Source: Hyphomicrobiales bacterium
GTDB taxonomy: Bacteria > Pseudomonadota > Alphaproteobacteria > Rhizobiales > Beijerinckiaceae
Length of the DNA stretch: 64,000 nucleotides
Reading direction: 5' to 3'
NCBI GenBank assembly: GCA_930633495.1
Contig: CAKNFJ010000001.1
Span: 3,867,001-3,931,000, forward strand
Part shown: one piece after another, positions 36,779-49,017 of the stretch
Layout of the letters: each line of letters opens with the position of its first letter
Numbering within the stretch: the stretch's first letter is position 1
Position numbers and translations under genes: made by a program
Notes under the pieces: model-generated
Databases searched by the model: none
What the model was told of the DNA's origin: nothing
The model's input: only the letters and a program-made list of their open reading frames with translations

Positions 36779-36798
36779 TGGTAGCGGGAGAGGGACTT
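36779..36798 (+). repeat. Left attachment site (copy of tRNA-Met 3' end)
   Basis: TGGTAGCGGGAGAGGGACTT, identical over 20 bp to the tRNA-Met 3' end at 48941-48960 and in the same orientation. The next bases differ (TTAAAGTC here, GAACCCCC in the tRNA), marking the inner border. Expected as the att copy left at the far end after integration. Confidence 0.88.
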
Positions 36799-37058
36799 TT
36801 AAAGTCAGCATAAGTGCCTGTTAGAAAAGTATTTTTCAATTTTTATGATCTATTGAGGCCAGCAAAAAGGCCAACTTTTATCTCGCCTGCGCGTGAACGC
36901 TGGTGAGCGCCTCTGCGCCGATTTGGACAGATTGTCGCACCTCCCATTATTCGGTCGCTTCGGTGCCTCATGCCCGATCGCGCCGCGCATTCCACAGTGC
37001 GGCACTCGGATTTGGAACGACGAGCTGCCTCCCGTGTTTGCATGGGAGGAGGGCGGCC

Positions 37059-38560: not shown

Positions 38561-39598
38561 TCAGTTCATCTCGAACACATTGGCCTCATCGGCTTGGTCC
38601 CGCACACCCTTAAACGACGCATGGCGGAGCTTTCCGTCGTCTGTCCAGGCGCGGAATGCGACCTCTGCGACAAGCTGGGGGGAAATCCATCGGGCTTTCT
38701 TGCGCTTGCCGGCCATCGTGACGACAGGCTCACGGATGGCTATCCGGTCCATCATCTTTCGCAGGGCCGTCGCGTCGGCGTGGCTGAAGCCAGAGCCGAC
38801 ACCGCCGACATAAATGAGAGCGTCGCCCTGGCGCGCGGCAAGCAGCAATCGTCCAATCCCGCCGAGTGCGCTCGTAGATGGTTCGTAGCCGACAATGACA
38901 AAGCTCTCCGACTGGCTGCACTTGATCTTGAGCCATTCGCCGCCTCGCCCTGAATGATAAGACGCATCACGGCGCTTCGCGATGATGCCTTCCAGGCCGA
39001 GATTGCAGGCCTGCTGCAGGAACGGCTCGCCCTGGGCGTCGATCTCTTCGCTGAATCGGATTGCTCCGTGAGGAGTGCGTCCGATCAACTGTTCGAGCAT
39101 CTGACGCCGTTCCTCCAGTTCGAGAATGCGCAGATCCTGGCCGTCCAGATAGAGCAGATCGAAGACGTAGAGCACGGCTTCAGCCGCCGGTCGCTTGCCG
39201 CCACGGCCGCCGAGCGCCCGTTGTAATGCACCGAAGTCTGCGGCGCCGCGCTCATCCAGCACGACTGCCTCGCCGTCGAGAATGGCGCTATCGACGCCCA
39301 GATCGAGGACATCACGGGCAATGGTCGGGAACCGGTTGGTCCAGTCATGGCCGGCGCGGGTGATGATGCGGACGTGTCTCCGCTCGATGTGTACAGCCAG
39401 CCGATAGCCGTCCCATTTCACTTCGAATGCCCAATCGGCACCGGCCGGCGCCTTACTGGCGAGGCGGGCTAGGCAGGGCTCAACGCGATCAGGCATCGGG
39501 TCGCTGAAGAGGTCGCGCTGGATCTTCCGCCGCCGGGTGAGCGGCCCCTTGAGCTTATCTCCGCTCAACCCGGCCCTGAGAACCTGACGCGCACACAT
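38561..39598 (-). CDS. ATP-dependent DNA ligase, LigD-ligase/LigC type
   Basis: A 345-aa single-module ligase (from ATG 39598; a Met 33 residues later is an alternative). The nucleotidyltransferase motifs are in order: motif I EVKWDGYRLAVH with the adenylated Lys, motif III LDGEAVVL, FDLLYLDGQDLRILELEERR, motif IV EGIIAKRRDA, motif V GEWLKIKC. An OB-fold domain follows (SFVIVGYEPSTSALGGIGRL). The polymerase and phosphoesterase domains of full LigD are absent and no ku gene is in the island. In bacteria such ligases act in non-homologous end joining; carriage on a mobile island suggests accessory repair. The long frame extending to 39829 is rejected as non-homologous. Confidence 0.92.
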   Translation of the reverse strand: MCARQVLRAGLSGDKLKGPLTRRRKIQRDLFSDPMPDRVEPCLARLASKAPAGADWAFEVKWDGYRLAVHIERRHVRIITRAGHDWTNRFPTIARDVLDLGVDSAILDGEAVVLDERGAADFGALQRALGGRGGKRPAAEAVLYVFDLLYLDGQDLRILELEERRQMLEQLIGRTPHGAIRFSEEIDAQGEPFLQQACNLGLEGIIAKRRDASYHSGRGGEWLKIKCSQSESFVIVGYEPSTSALGGIGRLLLAARQGDALIYVGGVGSGFSHADATALRKMMDRIAIREPVVTMAGKRKKARWISPQLVAEVAFRAWTDDGKLRHASFKGVRDQADEANVFEMN

Positions 39599-39728
39599 GG
39601 AACGCAACTCCGCAACGCACCGAGTCGCAAACCGCGCCCGAGGCGATTCGTTCCAGTTTGGCTTTCGACAGTTGCGGCCGGAACATGCCCCGCCTTGGCG
39701 GGGTTCCATACCCTGAGGAAGGTATGAA

Positions 39729-40091
39729 ATGGCCCGGCAACTCACCGTAAAGCGGATCGGCGAAGAGTGGGTCGCCCGCGACGCTACTGGGGCGATGTAC
39801 GGACAGTCGCCGGACCTATTTGAAACCATTGAAGCCGCTGAGCATTTGGCAAAAAGACTAGGAGCGACCGTTGCACTTGGCCGAGAGGCTCAGAATTACC
39901 TCCTCACCCAAGCTGCCAAGCTGCCGCGGCGGCCCCAGCGCGACTTAATCTCTGCCCCTGAGGCGCAAACGGCAGACGCTAAGAGCGGCGGCCCTCAAGA
40001 CCGCTCGCGCATCAACCTCATTGAAGACGACGAGGTGCGATTTTGGACCGACAAGTTCGGGGTATCCAAGCCGCAGCTTGAAGAGTGTTGA
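39729..40091 (+). pseudogene. DUF2188-like/DUF3606-type small protein gene truncated by the IS21 element
   Basis: The remaining 120 codons begin after a GAGGAAGG ribosome site with a strand-rich part (MARQLTVKRIGEEWVARDAT). The end is DRSRINLIEDDEVRFWTDKF, the start of a DUF3606 domain. The domain stops abruptly after SKPQLEE: the last codon TGT and stop TGA are the first bases of the IS21 terminal repeat (40086). About half of the DUF3606 helix bundle is lost, and no continuation appears beyond the element. Confidence 0.7.
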
Positions 40092-40198
40092 TTTCCGTCG
40101 AGAATTGACCCGTTAGGCGGGGATTTTTCCATCGAGAATTGACCCATGTTTTGACCACGTCTCACGCGGGCTATGCGGGGGACCTCGGAGTGATCGAC

Positions 40199-41728
40199 AT
40201 GGAGTTATTGAGTGTCATCCGCCGCTGGCATGGGCGGAATCATCTTTCGATCCGGGAGATTTCCCGGCGCACGGGGCTCTCGCGGAATACGGTTCGCAAG
40301 TATCTGCGTGCGGATAGCGTCGAGCCCCGGTTTCATGTTCCCGACCGGCCGAGCAAACTCGATCCCTATGCCGACAAGCTCTCGGCGATGCTTCGGATCG
40401 AAGGCGGCAAGTCGCGCAAGCACAAGCGCACGGTCCGCCAGTTGCATGCCGATCTGATTTTGCTCGGTTATGAGGGCTCCTACAATCGGGTCGCGGCCTT
40501 TGCCCGGGACTGGAAGGCAGCCCGCCTGCGCGAGCAGCAGACCAGCGGCCGTGGCACCTTCGTCCCCCTGGCCTTTGTGCCGGGTGAAGCGTTCCAGTTC
40601 GACTGGTCGGAGGACTGGGCGATCATCGCTGGCGAGCGCACCAAGCTGCAGGTGGCGCATGTGAAGCTGTCCTACAGCCGCGCCTTCACACTGCGAGCCT
40701 ACCCGCTGCAGACCCATGAGATGCTGTTCGACGCCCATAACCACGCCTTCCGGGCGCTGGGCGGCGTGCCGCGGCGGGGCATTTACGACAATATGAAAAC
40801 GGCCGTAGACAAGGTCGGCCGCGGCAAGGACCGCCAGGTCAATATCCGCTTCTCGGCCATGGTCAGCCACTTCCTGTTCGAAGCCGAGTTCTGCAATCCG
40901 GCATCAGGCTGGGAGAAGGGGCAGATCGAGAAGAACGTCCAGGATGCCAGGCATCGACTCTGGCAGCCTCTGCCGAACTTCCCGTCGCTGGAGGCACTGA
41001 ACGACTGGCTGGAGACCCGGTGTCGGGAGTTATGGTCGCAGACCGCGCACGGCACCCAACCTGGAACGGTTGCCGATGTCTGGACTGAAGAGATCCGGCA
41101 CCTGATGGCGATGCCGCGCCCCTTCGATGGCTTCGTCGAGTACGCCAAGCGCGTCTCCCCAACCTGCCTGGTCCATCTGGAACGCAATCGTTACAGCGTG
41201 CCGGCGTCCTTCGCGAACCGCCCGGTCAGCTTGCGCGTCTATCCCGATCGCATCCTCATTGTCGCTGAGGGACAGGTGATCTGCGAACATCGCCGGGTCT
41301 TCACCCGCTCGCATGATCGTCTCAGCCGGACAGTCTACGACTGGCGACATTATCTGGCGGTCCTCCAGCGCAAACCCGGGGCTCTGCGTAACGGTGCTCC
41401 CTTTGCCGAGATGCCGCCAGCCTTCCGATCCCTGCAGCAGCATCTGCTCAAGAGCCCGGGTGGCGAGCGGGAGGTGGTCGAGATCCTGGCTCTGGTCCTG
41501 CAGCATGACGAACACATCGTGCTGACGGCGGTCGAACTGGCCCTGAAGGCCGGCGTGCCGACCAAGACCCACATCATCAACCTCCTTCACCGGCTGGTCG
41601 ACGGCACGCCGTTGACCACGCCGACGGTCGACACCCCTTCGGTCCTTGCGTTGACCACCGAGCCGCGCGCCAATGTCGAACGCTATGACGCCCTGCGCCA
41701 AGCCGAGGACGTGCGCCATGCGTCATAA
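40199..41728 (+). CDS. istA: IS21 family transposase IstA
   Basis: A 509-aa transposase: N-terminal HTH ([20 protein letters not shown]), then an RNase H-fold core with [14 protein letters not shown] (first Asp), [15 protein letters not shown] (second Asp region) and [17 protein letters not shown] (Glu). The C-terminal beta domain [20 protein letters not shown] is also typical. ATG 40199 has GGAG eight bases upstream; GTG 40190 and TTG 40139 are in frame. It overlaps istB by 11 bp. Confidence 0.95.
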
Positions 41729-42512
41729 CCCTGCGAGCGGCGCCATCGCCATCATGCTGCGTAGCCTCAAGATGCACGGCATGGCCCAGGCCGTCGGCGA
41801 ACTGACGGAGCAGGGATCGCCGGCCTTCGAGGCCGCCGTGCCGATCCTCTCGCAACTCCTGAAGGCGGAGATGGCCGAAAGAGAGGTCCGATCAACGGCC
41901 TACCAACTCAAGGCCGCGCGCTTCCCGGCCTATCGCGACCTCAACGGCTTCGACTTCGCCAGCAGTGAGATCAACGAGGCGCTCGTTCGCCAACTGCATT
42001 GTTGCGAGTTCCTCCAGGACGCCGACAACGTCGTCCTGGTGGGAGGGCCGGGCACCGGCAAGACCCACGTCGCCACGGCTCTCGGCGTCCAGGCCATCGA
42101 GCACCATCACAAGCGGGTCCGCTTCTTCTCCACGGTCGAACTCGTCAATGCCCTCGAGCAGGAAAAGGCCCAGGGCAAGGCTGGACAGATGGCCGCCGGG
42201 CTCGCTTACGCCGATCTCGTCATCCTCGATGAGCTCGGATACCTGCCCTTCAGCGCGTCGGGTGGTGCCTTGCTCTTCCACTTGCTGAGCAAGCTCTACG
42301 AGCGCACCAGCGTCGTCATCACCACCAATCTCAGCTTCTCCGAATGGGCCACCGTCTTCGGCGATGCCAAGATGACCACCGCCTTGCTCGATCGGCTCAC
42401 GCACCACTGCCACATCATCGAAACCGGAAACGACAGCTTCCGCTTCAGGAACAGCTCCGCGAAACCCGACAAGCCAGCCAGGGAGAAAGCCAAAAACTTG
42501 ACCGCAACCTGA
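41718..42512 (+). CDS. istB: IS21 family helper ATPase IstB
   Basis: A 264-aa AAA+ protein assisting IstA in target capture. Walker A is [16 protein letters not shown], Walker [16 protein letters not shown], with sensor residues in [15 protein letters not shown] and [16 protein letters not shown] 41718 overlaps the istA end. Length and motifs are complete, so the element is probably still active. Confidence 0.95.
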
Positions 42513-42582
42513 ACCACAAACACCATCTGGGCGGGTCACTTCTCAGTGGAAACCCCGGGTCACTTCTCGGCGGAAATCAACA

Positions 42583-43101: not shown

Positions 43102-43653
43102 TCAACACCACGGTCGGCGTCGGCCTTGCCATGGTCGAGCCAATCCCTCGGCTACTAGGATTTGGCCTACGGAGCGTCCGTTCTGGTAAACCACACGCAG
43201 CAGGCGGCCATACTGATCCCGATCTCGGGAGCCATAGCCTTCGAGCGAGAAAGGCGCTTCTGCCAGTAGCTGGGCCAAGCGGTACTTTGCCCGGTCGCCC
43301 AACGCTCTTTCACTGGCGCACTTGGCCTGCTCAGTTTCCGGGGCGTCGATGTCGGCAATTCTGATTTTCTCCGCGCGATACCAGAATGTGTCTCCGTCAA
43401 CGACGCAGTCGCCAGTCCCGCGACCGCATATCCTGAACGGTACCTGCCGGGTTTCGCTGAGAGATCGCGAGCCTGGGCGGATAACTACCGCCTGAGGTTC
43501 GGCAGGTAGAAATTCTCTTCGAATCTGATCCATTCGCTCCGGCGAAGGCGTCAACAGTCCGAGCCCTGCTCCCAGAGCGACGATGAACGAGCACCCGCAC
43601 ACCACGGCCCACTGGACCGTGCTCATCCCGGCAATGTCTCGTCGAAACGACAT
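43102..43653 (-). CDS. Thermonuclease family (SNase-like) nuclease, membrane-anchored or secreted
   Basis: A 183-aa protein with an N-terminal hydrophobic segment (VQWAVVCGCSFIVALGAGLG, about residues 13-32) and a staphylococcal-nuclease fold: CVVDGDTFWYRAEKIRIADI, then DAPETEQAKC. The later segment YGSRDRDQYGRLLRVVYQNG contains the Arg-rich active-site strand. The DGDT and DAPE motifs are intact. It probably cleaves nucleic acid outside the cytoplasm. Similar small nucleases are frequent on rhizobial plasmids and islands. Confidence 0.9.
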   Translation of the reverse strand: MSFRRDIAGMSTVQWAVVCGCSFIVALGAGLGLLTPSPERMDQIRREFLPAEPQAVVIRPGSRSLSETRQVPFRICGRGTGDCVVDGDTFWYRAEKIRIADIDAPETEQAKCASERALGDRAKYRLAQLLAEAPFSLEGYGSRDRDQYGRLLRVVYQNGRSVGQILVAEGLARPWQGRRRPWC

Positions 43654-43787: not shown

Positions 43788-44504
43788 CTATTTCGTCGAG
43801 ACTTCAAGCCCAGAAAGCTGTTCAAGGCTTCCAGTGTCGAGCAGCCGTACACCCTCGGGAACTAGCAAGATGATCCCGTCGCGCGCAAACCGGGCCAACG
43901 TCCGGCTGACCGTTTCCATGGAAACTCCGAGATAGTCGGCGATATCGCGACGACACATCGGCAAATGCACTGTTACCGACCGTTTCCCCAATCGCGCCCA
44001 CCGTTCGCGCATCGTGAGAAGAAAACAAGCGATCTTCTCTTCAGAGCGTCGGCGTCCGAGCAGCAGCATGTGCTCCTCGGCTGCCGCCAATTCAGCATGT
44101 GCTAGATCGTGAAAGCGAGCCAAGACCTCTGGTTGCCCGACAAGCAAGGCGATCACCGAATCACGGGTGAAGGAATACGCTCGGACCGCATCAACTGCGT
44201 CGGCGGAAAAGCTGAACTCTTCTCCGAGCGAAGATGCGATCCAGTCTCCCGGTATCGAAAATCCGAGGATTTGGCGGCGACCATCCGCGAGGGTCTTGTA
44301 TCTCCTCACCATCCCTGAAGAGACAAGGAGACGATATTGATTAGGCTTTCCCGCCTTGAAGATAACCTCATTGGGGTTGAAAGATTTTTTGCACGCAAGA
44401 TCAGGCCAAAACACCAAAGATTCCTCGGTCAACTTCGGCAAATTCTGCGACTCACCTAGAGCATTACATTCATTCTGAATCTCACAAATGCGCTTCAATT
44501 GCAC
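43788..44504 (-). CDS. Crp/Fnr family transcriptional regulator
   Basis: A 238-aa regulator: cNMP-binding beta-roll (NPNEVIFKAGKPNQYRLLVS, then GRRQILGFSIPGDWI), long dimer helix, and a C-terminal HTH CRRDIADYLGVSMETVSRTL that is very close to FixK/FnrN-type recognition helices. Two cysteines near the N-terminus (CEIQNEC) are not in the FNR cluster spacing, so oxygen sensing by Fe-S is not supported. It may be part of oxygen/stress control brought by the island. Its target is unknown. Confidence 0.9.
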   Translation of the reverse strand: MQLKRICEIQNECNALGESQNLPKLTEESLVFWPDLACKKSFNPNEVIFKAGKPNQYRLLVSSGMVRRYKTLADGRRQILGFSIPGDWIASSLGEEFSFSADAVDAVRAYSFTRDSVIALLVGQPEVLARFHDLAHAELAAAEEHMLLLGRRRSEEKIACFLLTMRERWARLGKRSVTVHLPMCRRDIADYLGVSMETVSRTLARFARDGIILLVPEGVRLLDTGSLEQLSGLEVSTK

Positions 44505-44884: not shown

Positions 44885-45451
44885 ATGCAGATCGGATACG
44901 CGCGGTGTTCACAAGCGTCGCAGGACCATGCCTTGCAGATCGACGCGCTGACGGCAGCCGGATGCGAGAAGCTGTACATCGAGACGGCGAGCGGCCTGAA
45001 GGCTGACCGCCCCGAACTGAAGAAGTTGCTCGACCATGCTCGCCCAGGCGACGTGATCACGATCTACTCGTTGTCGCGGTTGGCGAGGTCGATCCGCCAC
45101 CTGCTCGATGTCGCCGAAGACCTGCGGGCGCGCGAGATCGGCCTGAGGAGCATCACCGAGGGCTTCGACACGACCAGCCCGGCGGGCCGCTTCATGTTCA
45201 ACGTGCTCGGGGCCTTGGGCCAGATGGAGGTCGAGCTTCTCCGCGAGCGTACCCAGGCCGGTCTTCGCGCAGCCCGTGCCCGTGGTCGCGTCGGCGGACG
45301 CCCGAAAGCCCTCGACCCGGTGAAGCTGACCGTCGCGAAGACGCTGCTTAGCGAAGGGACGCTGACGGTCGGCGAGATCGCCGAGCATGTCGGCGTCGCG
45401 CCCAGCACGATCTATCGAGCCGTGAAGGGCGGGCGGAGCGCACTGGCCTGA
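44885..45451 (+). CDS. Serine recombinase, small resolvase/invertase type
   Basis: A 188-aa Tn3-resolvase/Hin-like protein. It has an N-terminal catalytic domain (MQIGYARCSQASQDHALQID with the nucleophilic Ser near residue 9, DVITIYSLSRLARSIRHLLD with the Arg cluster, SPAGRFMFNVLGALGQMEVE), the E-helix with ERTQAGLRAARARGRVGGRP, and a C-terminal HTH (LTVGEIAEHVGVAPSTIYRA). All catalytic signatures are present. ATG 44885 has GGGAGG upstream. It is one of two serine recombinases in the island and could resolve or invert a local segment. Confidence 0.94.
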   Translation: MQIGYARCSQASQDHALQIDALTAAGCEKLYIETASGLKADRPELKKLLDHARPGDVITIYSLSRLARSIRHLLDVAEDLRAREIGLRSITEGFDTTSPAGRFMFNVLGALGQMEVELLRERTQAGLRAARARGRVGGRPKALDPVKLTVAKTLLSEGTLTVGEIAEHVGVAPSTIYRAVKGGRSALA

Positions 45452-45757
45452 CGGTCCGGGAGATCATCGCGCTGCGATCTCGCACACACGAGTCAGTCAA
45501 AAAGCGCCCCTCGACGGATGACCAGGACAGGCCACCGATGTGCTCTGCCCTGGCCCGTTCACCCGGTCGCGCGGCTCTCTTCATCCCGGAGGCAGGGCCG
45601 ACGTAGTGCGGTTTAGTGTTCGTATCGAGCGAAGCGAGGACGAACCGCTTTATATCGAGCGGCCCATCCGGGAGGCTCTAGTGTTAGTATAATGCTATTG
45701 ATACTGATTGTGTTGGTGCTTGTGTTTTTGCTCATGCGAGATGAGATCACACAGACA
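45452..45757. other. Non-coding gap of about 300 bp
   Basis: No gene recognised. The 3' half is clearly AT-rich compared with its surroundings (45680-45740, with TAGTATAATGCTATTGATAC), which could hold a promoter, but no downstream gene on the plus strand is supported. Confidence 0.45.
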
Positions 45758-46054
45758 TCAACCCAACCTCCGCTCATCCGCCTCGACGATCTTCATCAGA
45801 GCATCCCGATTGGGTGACCAGGACGTTCCCAGGCCACGACGTTCAACGACCTGTTCGAGATCGTCCTGACGCTTCTCCAGAACGGTCATGCTGCCGCCCA
45901 GGGCCTCCAAGAACTCGATGACCACCTGGGGCGTGTCCTCGGTCAGGGCAAAGCGCTCTTCAGCCTCGACCTTTGCCAGACGACGCTCCAGCACCTCGAT
46001 GATGAGGCGCTGCTCGTTGAGCGCTGCGACCAGCGCCTGCTCGACCTCCGTCAT
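45758..46054 (-). CDS. Small coiled-coil protein of unknown function
   Basis: A 98-aa acidic protein with a predicted coiled coil over most of its length (VAALNEQRLIIEVLERRLAK, then LEKRQDDLEQVVERRG). It starts at ATG 46054, overlapping the stop of the upstream 223-aa gene as ATGA, so the two are co-translated. No family recognised. The pair is unique to the island in this window and may form a complex. Confidence 0.6.
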   Translation of the reverse strand: MTEVEQALVAALNEQRLIIEVLERRLAKVEAEERFALTEDTPQVVIEFLEALGGSMTVLEKRQDDLEQVVERRGLGTSWSPNRDALMKIVEADERRLG

Positions 46055-46722
46055 GACTTGGCCTTCCGGCCCTTACGGTTCAGCCAGAGCCGGTGCGGAT
46101 CATGGCTGGCCCGCATAATGGGCTTCATCGGGATTTTGGGCAGGATCGTGAAGTTCTGGAACGTGATGGTCCCGCCCGGCAGGATCAAATCGAGCAAGAA
46201 CCCGCTATGCGTGGTCTCTTGGGCGAGGGCGATCGAGCCGAACTCGTAGTAGGTGCCCGAGCCATCCATCTGCACCTGCCCCAGACGAGGCCATTCCCCG
46301 TTGACCGGCATAGAGGCGGTCTGGCGAAGTACCGGCATGTAGGCCGCGTCCCAGAGGTCAGCGGGCAACATCGTCGGATTGTCGTAGGCGTACTTCTCCA
46401 TCACGTTGGAGAACACGTCGGGGTGCCGCAAGACGGCATTACCTTCCCAGGCCGCGTTCTGGTGGCTGGGCGTGAAGGGCGTGGTCTCGGTGAAGACCTG
46501 GAAGGTCGCCCGCCACCACATCCACTCGAAGTTCTTACCCCGGTCGGAGTTGTCGAAGATGTAGGCGTTGGCCAGCGTGATCTCGTCGAAGGCAGGCAAC
46601 CGCGACAGAGGCCGTCCGGCCGGGGCAGCCGGAGATGCCTGCGCCGAAGCCGAGATCGTCGCGGGAATGGCAGTGGCGTTGGCGAGCTTGTTGAGCGCGT
46701 CGAGCGCTGAGAATGGGGTCAT
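46051..46722 (-). CDS. Protein of unknown function, operon partner of the coiled-coil protein
   Basis: A 223-aa protein rich in aromatic residues with predicted beta structure (FEWMWWRATFQVFTETTPFT; GSGTYYEFGSIALAQETTH; LLDLILPGGTITFQNFTILP) and an Ala/Pro/Ser-rich N-terminal linker without a clear signal peptide. The aromatic beta-rich make-up recalls virion or secreted structural proteins, but I recognise no family. It overlaps the downstream 98-aa coiled-coil gene by 4 bp. Confidence 0.6.
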   Translation of the reverse strand: MTPFSALDALNKLANATAIPATISASAQASPAAPAGRPLSRLPAFDEITLANAYIFDNSDRGKNFEWMWWRATFQVFTETTPFTPSHQNAAWEGNAVLRHPDVFSNVMEKYAYDNPTMLPADLWDAAYMPVLRQTASMPVNGEWPRLGQVQMDGSGTYYEFGSIALAQETTHSGFLLDLILPGGTITFQNFTILPKIPMKPIMRASHDPHRLWLNRKGRKAKS

Positions 46723-46979
46723 GGCAATGGTCCAAATATCGATCTGAAATGAGGTCTGCGCGCGCCGCCTCGCTCTTCGAGCCAGCGCGACCGGCTAATG
46801 CTCCGGCCTCATCAGAAGGGCACAGCAGCCCTCGGAATGTCGAAATTAAAATGCTGGCCAACAGGGACGATCCTGCGGTCGGGCCGCAAGATCGGTGACC
46901 CCAAGCTGCTCGTCAGGCATCGCCCGTCAACGGCGCGACCAACGAAAATGACGGCAGATCGAGAGCTTCGCCCCGGACG

Positions 46980-47313
46980 AGTCCCTCTCCCGCTACCATC
47001 GCTCCCCCCGACAGGCCCGATCTATCCGGGCGTCGGCAGAGGGGGCGCAATCGAGCCGTTATCTCGATCATGGGAGCATCTTCGGCACGCTTTGGAATGA
47101 TCGCGACGGACTTCATCAGCGACCGAACCAAGACCGCTGCGGGGCTATCGGCTTCCACAGTCCCCAGCTTTGCTCGCGCACGAAGCTCTTGAACTGTCCC
47201 GAGATAGTTCGACACGGTTTCCGGGTTAATCTCCAGATCGTCAGACGTATGGTCCAGGGCCAACAATTCCCCTCGGAGCGTTTCCTCTTCGATTCGCCCT
47301 TGTTGGCAGCGCT
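46980..47313. repeat. Left arm of a perfect 334-bp inverted repeat flanking the large serine recombinase
   Basis: This segment is the exact reverse complement of 48626-48959. It contains an inverted copy of the recombinase C-terminal coding sequence (about 110 codons) and, at its outer end (46980-46998), the 19-bp tRNA-Met 3' sequence. On the minus strand the copied reading frame stays open to 46913, so it would give an alternative C-terminal tail if the central segment were inverted. Confidence 0.95.
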
Positions 47314-47341
47314 TCCGACCGCTCCAATGGGGCGGTCGGAA
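47313..47341 (+). promoter_or_regulatory. Hairpin at the inner edge of the inverted repeat, upstream of the recombinase
   Basis: TTCCGACCGC (47313-47322) and GCGGTCGGAA (47332-47341) form a perfect 10-bp stem with a 9-nt loop. It begins exactly where the 334-bp left arm ends and stops 20 bp before the recombinase ATG. It could be an operator for the recombinase, an attenuator, or the scar of the event that made the inverted duplication. Confidence 0.55.
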
Positions 47342-47361
47342 GCCTACAGATATGGAGTACC

Positions 47362-48984
47362 ATGCGAAAAGCGGTCATTTATGCGCGATACAGCACCGAT
47401 CTTCAGAATGAGCGGTCGATTGCAGATCAGGTAGCGCTTTGCCGTGGGTATGCCCGGAAGGAGCGGCTTTCGATCCTGTCAGTCTATGAAGATCGAGCAA
47501 CCTCAGGGGCATCGATTGCTGGTCGTCCTGGATTGCTGACGCTGCTTGCCCAGGCGAACCTCGGGGCGTTCGACGTGCTCGTTGTTGAGGCTCTTGATCG
47601 GCTGTCGCGCGATATAGCCGACTTGGGTCAAATCCATAAGATATTCACGTTCCTGGGTATCGAGATCATCGGAGTGAACGACGGCGGTCGCCCCGCTGAT
47701 ACCGTGCTTATCGGACTTCGGGGGCTCGTTGCTCAACTGTTCCGCGAAGACGGGGCGAAGAAGGTTAGGCGAGGCATGCTTGGACTCGTCAGTGCGGGAA
47801 GGCACGCAGGAGGCCGAGCCTACGGTTATCGGCCTTGTCCAACCCGTCGTGGCGAGCCGGAGATCATCGCGGATGAGGCCGCGATCGTCAGACGGATTTT
47901 TGCTGACTATCTTTCGGGCCAAACGCCTCGACAAATTGCTCATGCGCTGAACGAGGACGGCGTGCCTCCGCCCCGAGGAAAGGGCTGGAACGCCTCGACG
48001 ATCAACGGCTCTTCGGCACGAGGCAACGGGATTATCCAGAATGAACTTTATGCGGGCCGCCTCGTCTGGAACAAAGTGAGGATGGTCAAGAATCCGGCCA
48101 ATGGTCGTCGAGTATCCCGGCCCAATCCCCGAGACGCCTGGATACGCGCCGAGCGCCCAGACCTTGTTATCATCCCAGCCGATACGTTTGAGTTGGCCAA
48201 TGCGCTGAAGCACGACCGATCGATCAAGCAACCTGAGCAAACACGACGTAATATCCGGCTTCTGTCAGGGCTTCTGCGCTGCTCCTGCTGCGGCGGAGGC
48301 TTCTCGACAGCAGGAGTTGATAAGAGCGGACGTGTACGTATCCGATGCTCACGTCATGTAGAAAGCGGGACCTGCCCTGAGCCCCGTACCTACTATCTGA
48401 CATGGGTTGAGAGTACGGTTCTGTCGGCGCTTGTGCAGGAGCTTAAGGGCCAGACTGTCATCCGGCAGGCTCATTTCGACTACAGGCAAGAGCGATCGTC
48501 CCGCCTTCAGGCCGCGCAGATTCGGCGAAACGAGGTTCACGAGCGTCTCAAGAAAGTAGCGGAGGAGATGGACCGCCTGACAGATTTTCTGGCCCGAGGT
48601 GTCGGCGACCCGATCAGAATTGACCAGCGCTGCCAACAAGGGCGAATCGAAGAGGAAACGCTCCGAGGGGAATTGTTGGCCCTGGACCATACGTCTGACG
48701 ATCTGGAGATTAACCCGGAAACCGTGTCGAACTATCTCGGGACAGTTCAAGAGCTTCGTGCGCGAGCAAAGCTGGGGACTGTGGAAGCCGATAGCCCCGC
48801 AGCGGTCTTGGTTCGGTCGCTGATGAAGTCCGTCGCGATCATTCCAAAGCGTGCCGAAGATGCTCCCATGATCGAGATAACGGCTCGATTGCGCCCCCTC
48901 TGCCGACGCCCGGATAGATCGGGCCTGTCGGGGGGAGCGATGGTAGCGGGAGAGGGACTTGAACCCCCGACACGCGGATTATGA
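47362..48984 (+). CDS. Large serine recombinase, probable island integrase
   Basis: A 540-aa protein: resolvase catalytic domain (VIYARYSTDLQNERSIADQV with the nucleophilic Ser at residue 10, VLVVEALDRLSRDIADLGQI with the Arg motif), recombinase domain (about 160-270, ADEAAIVRRIFADYLSGQTP), a zinc ribbon (LLRCSCCGGGF, then RCSRHVESGTC) and a coiled-coil C-terminus (about 370-450). ATG 47362 has GGAG upstream. The 3' end crosses the tRNA-derived core, and the last residues GEGLEPPTRGL plus the stop are encoded by antisense tRNA-Met sequence. No tyrosine integrase exists in the island, so this is the best candidate for integration and excision. Confidence 0.93.
   Translation: MRKAVIYARYSTDLQNERSIADQVALCRGYARKERLSILSVYEDRATSGASIAGRPGLLTLLAQANLGAFDVLVVEALDRLSRDIADLGQIHKIFTFLGIEIIGVNDGGRPADTVLIGLRGLVAQLFREDGAKKVRRGMLGLVSAGRHAGGRAYGYRPCPTRRGEPEIIADEAAIVRRIFADYLSGQTPRQIAHALNEDGVPPPRGKGWNASTINGSSARGNGIIQNELYAGRLVWNKVRMVKNPANGRRVSRPNPRDAWIRAERPDLVIIPADTFELANALKHDRSIKQPEQTRRNIRLLSGLLRCSCCGGGFSTAGVDKSGRVRIRCSRHVESGTCPEPRTYYLTWVESTVLSALVQELKGQTVIRQAHFDYRQERSSRLQAAQIRRNEVHERLKKVAEEMDRLTDFLARGVGDPIRIDQRCQQGRIEEETLRGELLALDHTSDDLEINPETVSNYLGTVQELRARAKLGTVEADSPAAVLVRSLMKSVAIIPKRAEDAPMIEITARLRPLCRRPDRSGLSGGAMVAGEGLEPPTRGL
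48626..48959. repeat. Right arm of the 334-bp inverted repeat
   Basis: Perfect reverse complement of 46980-47313. It spans the last 112 codons of the recombinase up to, and including, 19 bp of the tRNA-Met 3' end. Identity stops at the next base on both sides (48960 and 48625), which sharply defines the duplication. Confidence 0.95.
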
Positions 48985-49017
48985 TTCCGCTGCTCTAACC
49001 AGCTGAGCTACCCCGCC
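48941..49017 (-). tRNA. tRNA-Met (anticodon CAT)
   Basis: On the minus strand the 77-nt sequence begins GGCGGGGTAGCTCAGCTGG and ends in encoded CCA (complement of 48941-48943). The anticodon stem GCGGA/TCCGC encloses loop ATCATAA, giving anticodon CAT. The D arm GCTC/GAGC and T loop TTCAAGT are normal. The acceptor stem has two G-U pairs. Strong pairing at the top of the initiator type is lacking, so it reads as elongator tRNA-Met; an Ile2 tRNA with modified C34 cannot be excluded. Its 3' end is the attachment site of the island to the left. Confidence 0.95.

Follow-up and report, generated by a model that had tools for sequence, protein, structure and literature searches.

Large serine integrases of the phiC31, Bxb1 and Tn4451 type share their Resolvase, Recombinase and zinc-ribbon domains with the recombinase described here, and the att sites of its family are likewise dyads around a short centre. 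The family differs from that type in its deduced target, the 3′ end of a tRNA-Met gene, and in that the gene reads through the att core. According to the excerpted text of a 2014 article, no serine integrase is known to use a tRNA gene (PMC4383910), and the word tRNA is absent from the main text of a 2022 survey of large serine recombinases (PMC10083194). An integrase of the Mesorhizobium tripartite ICEs acts at tRNA-Met(a), according to a 2021 survey that also lists elements located at tRNA-Met and six that carry serine integrases (PMC8627217). By our reading the integrase acting there is IntM, given as a tyrosine recombinase in an extract of a further paper (PMC5882170). IntM resembles the present recombinase in its tRNA-Met site and differs in recombinase type (tyrosine versus serine); being of the tyrosine type, it was rejected as a relative.

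Three other systems invite comparison. In phage integration-dependent switches, where attP lies in a reading frame, integration rewrites the C-terminus of an element protein; the excerpts cited concern a repressor and a degradation tag (PMC9934374, PMC6109161), whereas here the tail of the integrase itself would be rewritten. In the Rin and Min shufflons, as here, inversion would swap a C-terminus. The shufflons, as far as the excerpt describes them, have several crossover sites and observed orientations (PMC6109161), whereas our locus has one half site and is known from one assembled orientation. Palindrome-induced duplications in Escherichia coli are also inverted duplications beside a hairpin-forming sequence. 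As the abstract describes them, they are large, centered on a 246-bp palindrome and found where SbcCD and RecA are absent (PMC3315005); the arm described below is short and displaced. A literature search for the tRNA-Met-ending serine recombinase family, and another on integrase-gene inversion or duplication and integration-dependent tails, both at the level of titles and the starts of abstracts, found no published account of the family.

The window is the whole stretch of DNA that was analyzed, 64 kb in length. The features on which the analysis turns are as follows.

36779 to 36942, plus strand: left island end, a 20-bp core and a flank also present in three further genomes of the genus
46980 to 47313, minus strand: left arm, holding inverted recombinase codons ~422 to 533, the P-left half site and, at its outer end, 19 bp of the tRNA 3′ end
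46980 to 46998, minus strand: inverted 19-bp core, att-like on its P-left side only, with a background-like outer side (46979 leftwards)
47311 to 47343, no strand: near-perfect hairpin of 33 nt at the left arm's inner edge, with 18 bp between it and the start codon
47314 to 48625, no strand: unique core between the arms (1,312 bp), inverted by a flip
47362 to 48984, plus strand: large serine recombinase of 540 aa (Resolvase, Recombinase, Zn_ribbon_recom), with its stop inside the antisense tRNA-Met
48626 to 48959, plus strand: right arm, the native 3′ part of the recombinase gene running into the tRNA 3′ end
48920 to 48975, plus strand: attR, with the P-left half, a deduced dyad center AG at 48951-48952 and the tRNA half on the right
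48941 to 49017, minus strand: tRNA-Met (CAT), the gene that the integrase family is deduced to target

The encoded protein carries all three domains of a large serine integrase (Pfam PF00239, PF07508 and PF13408) and matches the integrase family phrog_95. The two arms are complementary at 334 of 334 positions, spaced 1312 nt apart (blastn E 3e-174), and the left arm is a backwards copy of the last fifth of the recombinase gene, placed 48 bp upstream of its start codon. A preliminary description of this DNA had reported exact inverted arms that carry the recombinase C-terminal coding sequence and, at the outer edge, the tRNA-Met 3′ end, and both statements were borne out. Within the window they are the sole inverted pair that reaches 45 nt. 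As a control, twelve further 20-kb stretches of this genome (240 kb in all) contain three such pairs, confined to two of the stretches, 81-90% alike and none perfect; one stretch (L221, G000:C1:3200001-3220000) has inverted repeats that are imperfect, with lengths of 355 nt (81% alike) and 79 nt (90% alike) and a spacing of ~6-7 kb. A genome search (5.94 Mb, 3 contigs) returned no third copy of the arm, and 46980-47361 had no match among plasmids.

Each arm carries the 19-bp tRNA 3′ end (TGGTAGCGGGAGAGGGACT) at its outer end, and this sequence recurs in direct orientation at 36779; attR shares 20 bp of core with 36779 and 19 bp with the inverted copy. At their other termini the arms end in the 6-bp palindrome AGCGCT (47308-47313 and 48626-48631), which overlaps the foot of the hairpin. 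The stem at this inner edge had been placed at 47313-47341 and given as 10 bp; a stem is present, with its size understated, since the hairpin spans 33 nt. Most of it falls within the 48 bp between the left arm and the start codon, and the RNA fold energy of 47301-47362 is -33.4. Sigma-70-type promoters and terminators were sought at 46700-47450 and none was found.

Inverting the core by script yields a minus-strand ORF of 554 aa with its stop at 46913, in which GEGLVRGEALDLPSFSLVAPLTGDA replaces the tail GEGLEPPTRGL, in agreement with the earlier claim that a flip would leave a full-length gene with another tail. The two orientations have the first 533 residues and 382 bases upstream of the start in common; a flip would therefore alter only the tail of the protein and none of the signals within those 382 bp.

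The window gene is a member of a mostly alphaproteobacterial family of large serine recombinases. A scan with one genome per species yielded 80 loci, 74 of them with a usable start; by record title, a single locus (L086) lies outside the Alphaproteobacteria. Full-length relatives are at most ~50% identical to the window protein, with best segments of up to 62%. As in the window, the frame stops in an opposite-strand tRNA-Met in 56 of the 74 loci (e.g., L010:7583-7659), so that the tRNA writes the last residues. The commonest tail written in this way is GEGLEPPTPGL (35 of the 56); L038, counted among the 56, reads the tRNA-Met in another frame. The remaining 18 loci have broken or short frames or other tails, and some members (L033, L034, L055) carry a whole attP followed by a different tail. 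Elsewhere in the genus, close relatives of the gene were found in 15 of 66 other genomes at E 1e-60. One genome (G064) has, ~24 kb from a full copy at tRNA-Met, a second relative (L138, C1:2530873-2531898) that is 55% identical over residues 1-342 only. One genome sample took in 46 relatives' genomes plus 4 from the genus, without loci L014, L015, L029, L040, L061, L077 and L083.

The left ends of the relatives' elements display the other attP half, and the deduced family attP is a dyad, for example GTGTGGGGAAAGG-TGGTAGCG-GGGGAG-CGCTACCG-CCTTTCCCCACAC, centered on core positions 11-12, which correspond to 48951-48952 in the window. A family half-site matrix describing attP halves (67 training sequences, without L038 and L065; 11 P-right halves) gives the P-left half a score of 20.8 in both the attR core and the inverted core. 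The outer half of the inverted core scores -18.4, within a window background whose median is -23.9 and whose 95th percentile is -10.3, and this flank was rejected as an attP-right half. Because the matrix was trained on the family, its scores for family sites provide no independent check. It assigns -12.6 to the genuine tRNA half, and -1.7 and -1.0 to two right halves from the same genus that are likewise genuine, and -18.4 is therefore a hint and no proof. The preliminary description had named an inverted extra att core; the 19-bp core and its P-left half are there, and the outer half is background-like.

Partner sites of serine integrases, whether attP and attB or attL and attR, do not normally share the same half. 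Both cores here carry an identical P-left half and are therefore neither an attP/attB nor an attL/attR pair. An exact 14-mer search for a serine-type attL, made in 27 genomes, found only the three known cores in the window's genome, and at three or fewer mismatches the window contains 8 matches against 7 expected by chance. The recombinase thus has an attR and no recognizable attL, with the proviso that a strongly diverged attL would escape such a search. Its absence bears on the mobility of this copy and not on the family to which the protein belongs.

The core at 36779 was considered as the recombinase's own attL and rejected: its right flank scores -15.8, lacks the C-run of family P-right halves and recurs in genomes without the recombinase. 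These are G065, G078 and G022, in which the flank is 72-77% identical, each match begins at the first base of the core, and this serine recombinase was not found at E 1e-60. The stretch bounded by the flank in G065 measures ~14 kb and encodes, beside tRNA-Met, an Arm-DNA-bind_3/Phage_integrase protein; its counterpart in G078 measures ~8 kb, with no integrase recognized by eye among frames of at least 150 aa; in G022 each end is on a contig of its own. The 36779 core thus probably belongs to a different element, apparently of tyrosine-integrase type, whose end it marks, and the island looks composite, with a serine-type right end and, apparently, a left end of the other type (the integrase being seen in one of the three genomes). 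To the left of ~36 kb lie chromosomal genes of nitrate/nitrite-assimilation type, a function suggested by their domains. The island itself also encodes an ATP-dependent DNA ligase as cargo (38561-39829), an IS21-type istA/istB pair (40139-42512, with imperfect inverted ends at ~40086-40145 and 42533-42582), a staphylococcal-nuclease-like protein (43102-43653), a Crp-type regulator (43788-44504) and a second, small serine resolvase with its own helix-turn-helix (44885-45451).

The preliminary description had proposed looking for the same inverted arms in related genomes. None of the 80 related loci has a partial inverted C-terminal copy beside the gene (L078 has almost no upstream sequence). 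At one locus (L034, 6001-9362) the recombinase gene is faced by a second, complete one that shares 36% identity with that of the window, and the pair has diverged inverted flanks. Among the matches listed for 60 other genomes of the genus and order, most of them without a close relative of the recombinase gene, there was no long match to the arm, and only half-site matches of 33-35 bp, in G012 and G031. When 45700-47000 was compared with 397 genomes of the family, 28 had matches, and those in the 27 other genomes were short. The arms were accordingly rejected as a normal architecture of the family, being absent from the related loci and genus genomes searched.

What precedes the gene also sets the window apart. 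In a set of 75 upstream regions of 700 bp, those of 67 loci cluster into a single group by similarity at E 1e-3, and the region from the window falls outside it. In 56 of 74 loci (e.g., L007:5697-6047), a small ORF of LARxLARxAAREDH or EALAIADARRDH type leads into the start of the recombinase gene and stops at +1, +47 or +59 relative to it, which suggests translational coupling. This count is a lower bound, as the motif was written by eye after viewing the sequences and misses, for example, L027 (judged by eye); the position scan found 57, one of which, 303 bp off, is excluded from the 56. The window gene has no recognizable small ORF upstream, and the left arm occupies that stretch. When 57 of these small ORFs were compared with the window, 20 of 779 matches touched 46500-47500, which is noise level, the best having E 0.11 (46810-46974). 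One small ORF scanned against NCBIfam and PHROGs gave no match; its position alone suggests a candidate directionality factor or regulator.

Three relatives, L022 (~5571), L027 (~5579) and L044 (~3694), carry a full inverted att-like dyad ~430 bp upstream of the recombinase. The dyads score 36.6, 27.6 and 23.8, respectively, against a largest value of 9.9 in plain base shuffles covering 74 relatives and the window; L025 also exceeds that value (10.9), through one half only. The L027 site includes 75 bp that match the P-right arm at 77%, as a diverged copy. Such an inverted upstream dyad might serve as an operator, act as a decoy or be a genuine second site. The three sites were rejected as ancestors of the window arm, their outer half being unlike the window's.

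We consider the 334-bp inverted repeat to be probably a scar, left by an illegitimate, inverted partial duplication at a deletion junction. This junction would lie between the remains of a tyrosine-integrase-type island (36779 to ~46979) and the end of a serine-integrase element at tRNA-Met. There, a 3′ piece of the recombinase gene with its attP-left half may have been inserted in reverse, by copying or joining, at a point 48 bp ahead of the start codon, and this step, or the event that it was part of, would have replaced the gene's native upstream region and removed the left end of the element. Four observations underlie this reading: the arms, an upstream region unlike that of the relatives, a search that found no serine-type left att site, and a left end common to other elements. 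From them we infer that DNA was replaced or lost, by what route and in what order. The most likely route would be template switching during replication, or fold-back, acting at AGCGCT and the strong hairpin of the inner edge, and the position of AGCGCT at the hairpin foot fits either process. A purely illegitimate join leaves one coincidence unexplained. The outer edge of arm identity lies only 7 bp beyond the deduced att dyad center, a placement that a random breakpoint within 2 kb would reach in <1% of cases by rough estimate, and it hints at a possible initiating cut at the att site. Either route, template switching or an att cut, would leave a scar and no switch.

That same outer edge is an argument for a different, unlikely origin in which the recombinase made the repeat: either another copy of the element or the attR of the gene itself would have recombined in inverted orientation with a secondary site at 46979, followed by a deletion between AGCGCT copies. 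The next two bases, C and G, match the tRNA halves of many relatives, and the later deletion would account for the arbitrary inner edge within the gene. The outer half of the supposed secondary site is nevertheless inside the background (a genuine tRNA half, as noted, is also low), and identity extends 7 bp past the deduced crossover, unlike the product of a simple crossover. An artefact of assembly, in the form of a chimeric inverted join, would suit perfect identity seen in a single genome, and is very improbable for a 5.94 Mb genome in just 3 contigs, where the window has no further inverted pair of this size, the control pairs are all imperfect, the outer flanks of the arms are unlike each other and a repeat of only 334 bp is within the span of most long-read types. 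Comparably remote is the programmed cassette of the preliminary description, in which the gene would flip between two C-terminal tails by homologous exchange or through its own action on the cores. The arms are indeed long, perfect inverted repeats around a unique core (334 bp, 100%), a flip retains the full-length gene with only the tail differing, and three relatives also have an inverted att-like site ~430 bp upstream. These sites are not C-terminal copies, however, nor are they independent of one another, because they come from similar upstream regions. Arms were found in no relative examined, and site-specific inversion calls for two full inverted recombination sites, of which the inverted core resembles a half site only, so that the cassette claim was not upheld. 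With an outer half that scores like background, flipping driven by the recombinase is unlikely; RecA-type exchange between the arms may possibly invert the repeat now and then.

Understood as a scar, the repeat suggests how the ends of islands at a tRNA hotspot may decay by inverted duplication, stranding an integrase that has lost its partner site. Of greater interest are two by-products, the tRNA-Met-targeting family with a state-dependent tail and the inverted att-like site of three relatives. A more far-reaching proposal, which we regard as improbable, is that the integrase senses its own state: integration would give it a tRNA-written tail (EGLEPPTPGL and variants) and the free form an attP-written one, the two differing in activity, the inverted arm here would add a third tail reachable by a flip, and in some relatives the inverted upstream att-like site would do the flipping. 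The window repeat would offer a natural test, pairing a third tail with an otherwise identical gene and 382 identical upstream bases. The family runs counter to the statement on serine integrases and tRNA genes in the 2014 excerpt (PMC4383910) and, if the tail matters, would represent a simple integration sensor built from a tRNA gene.
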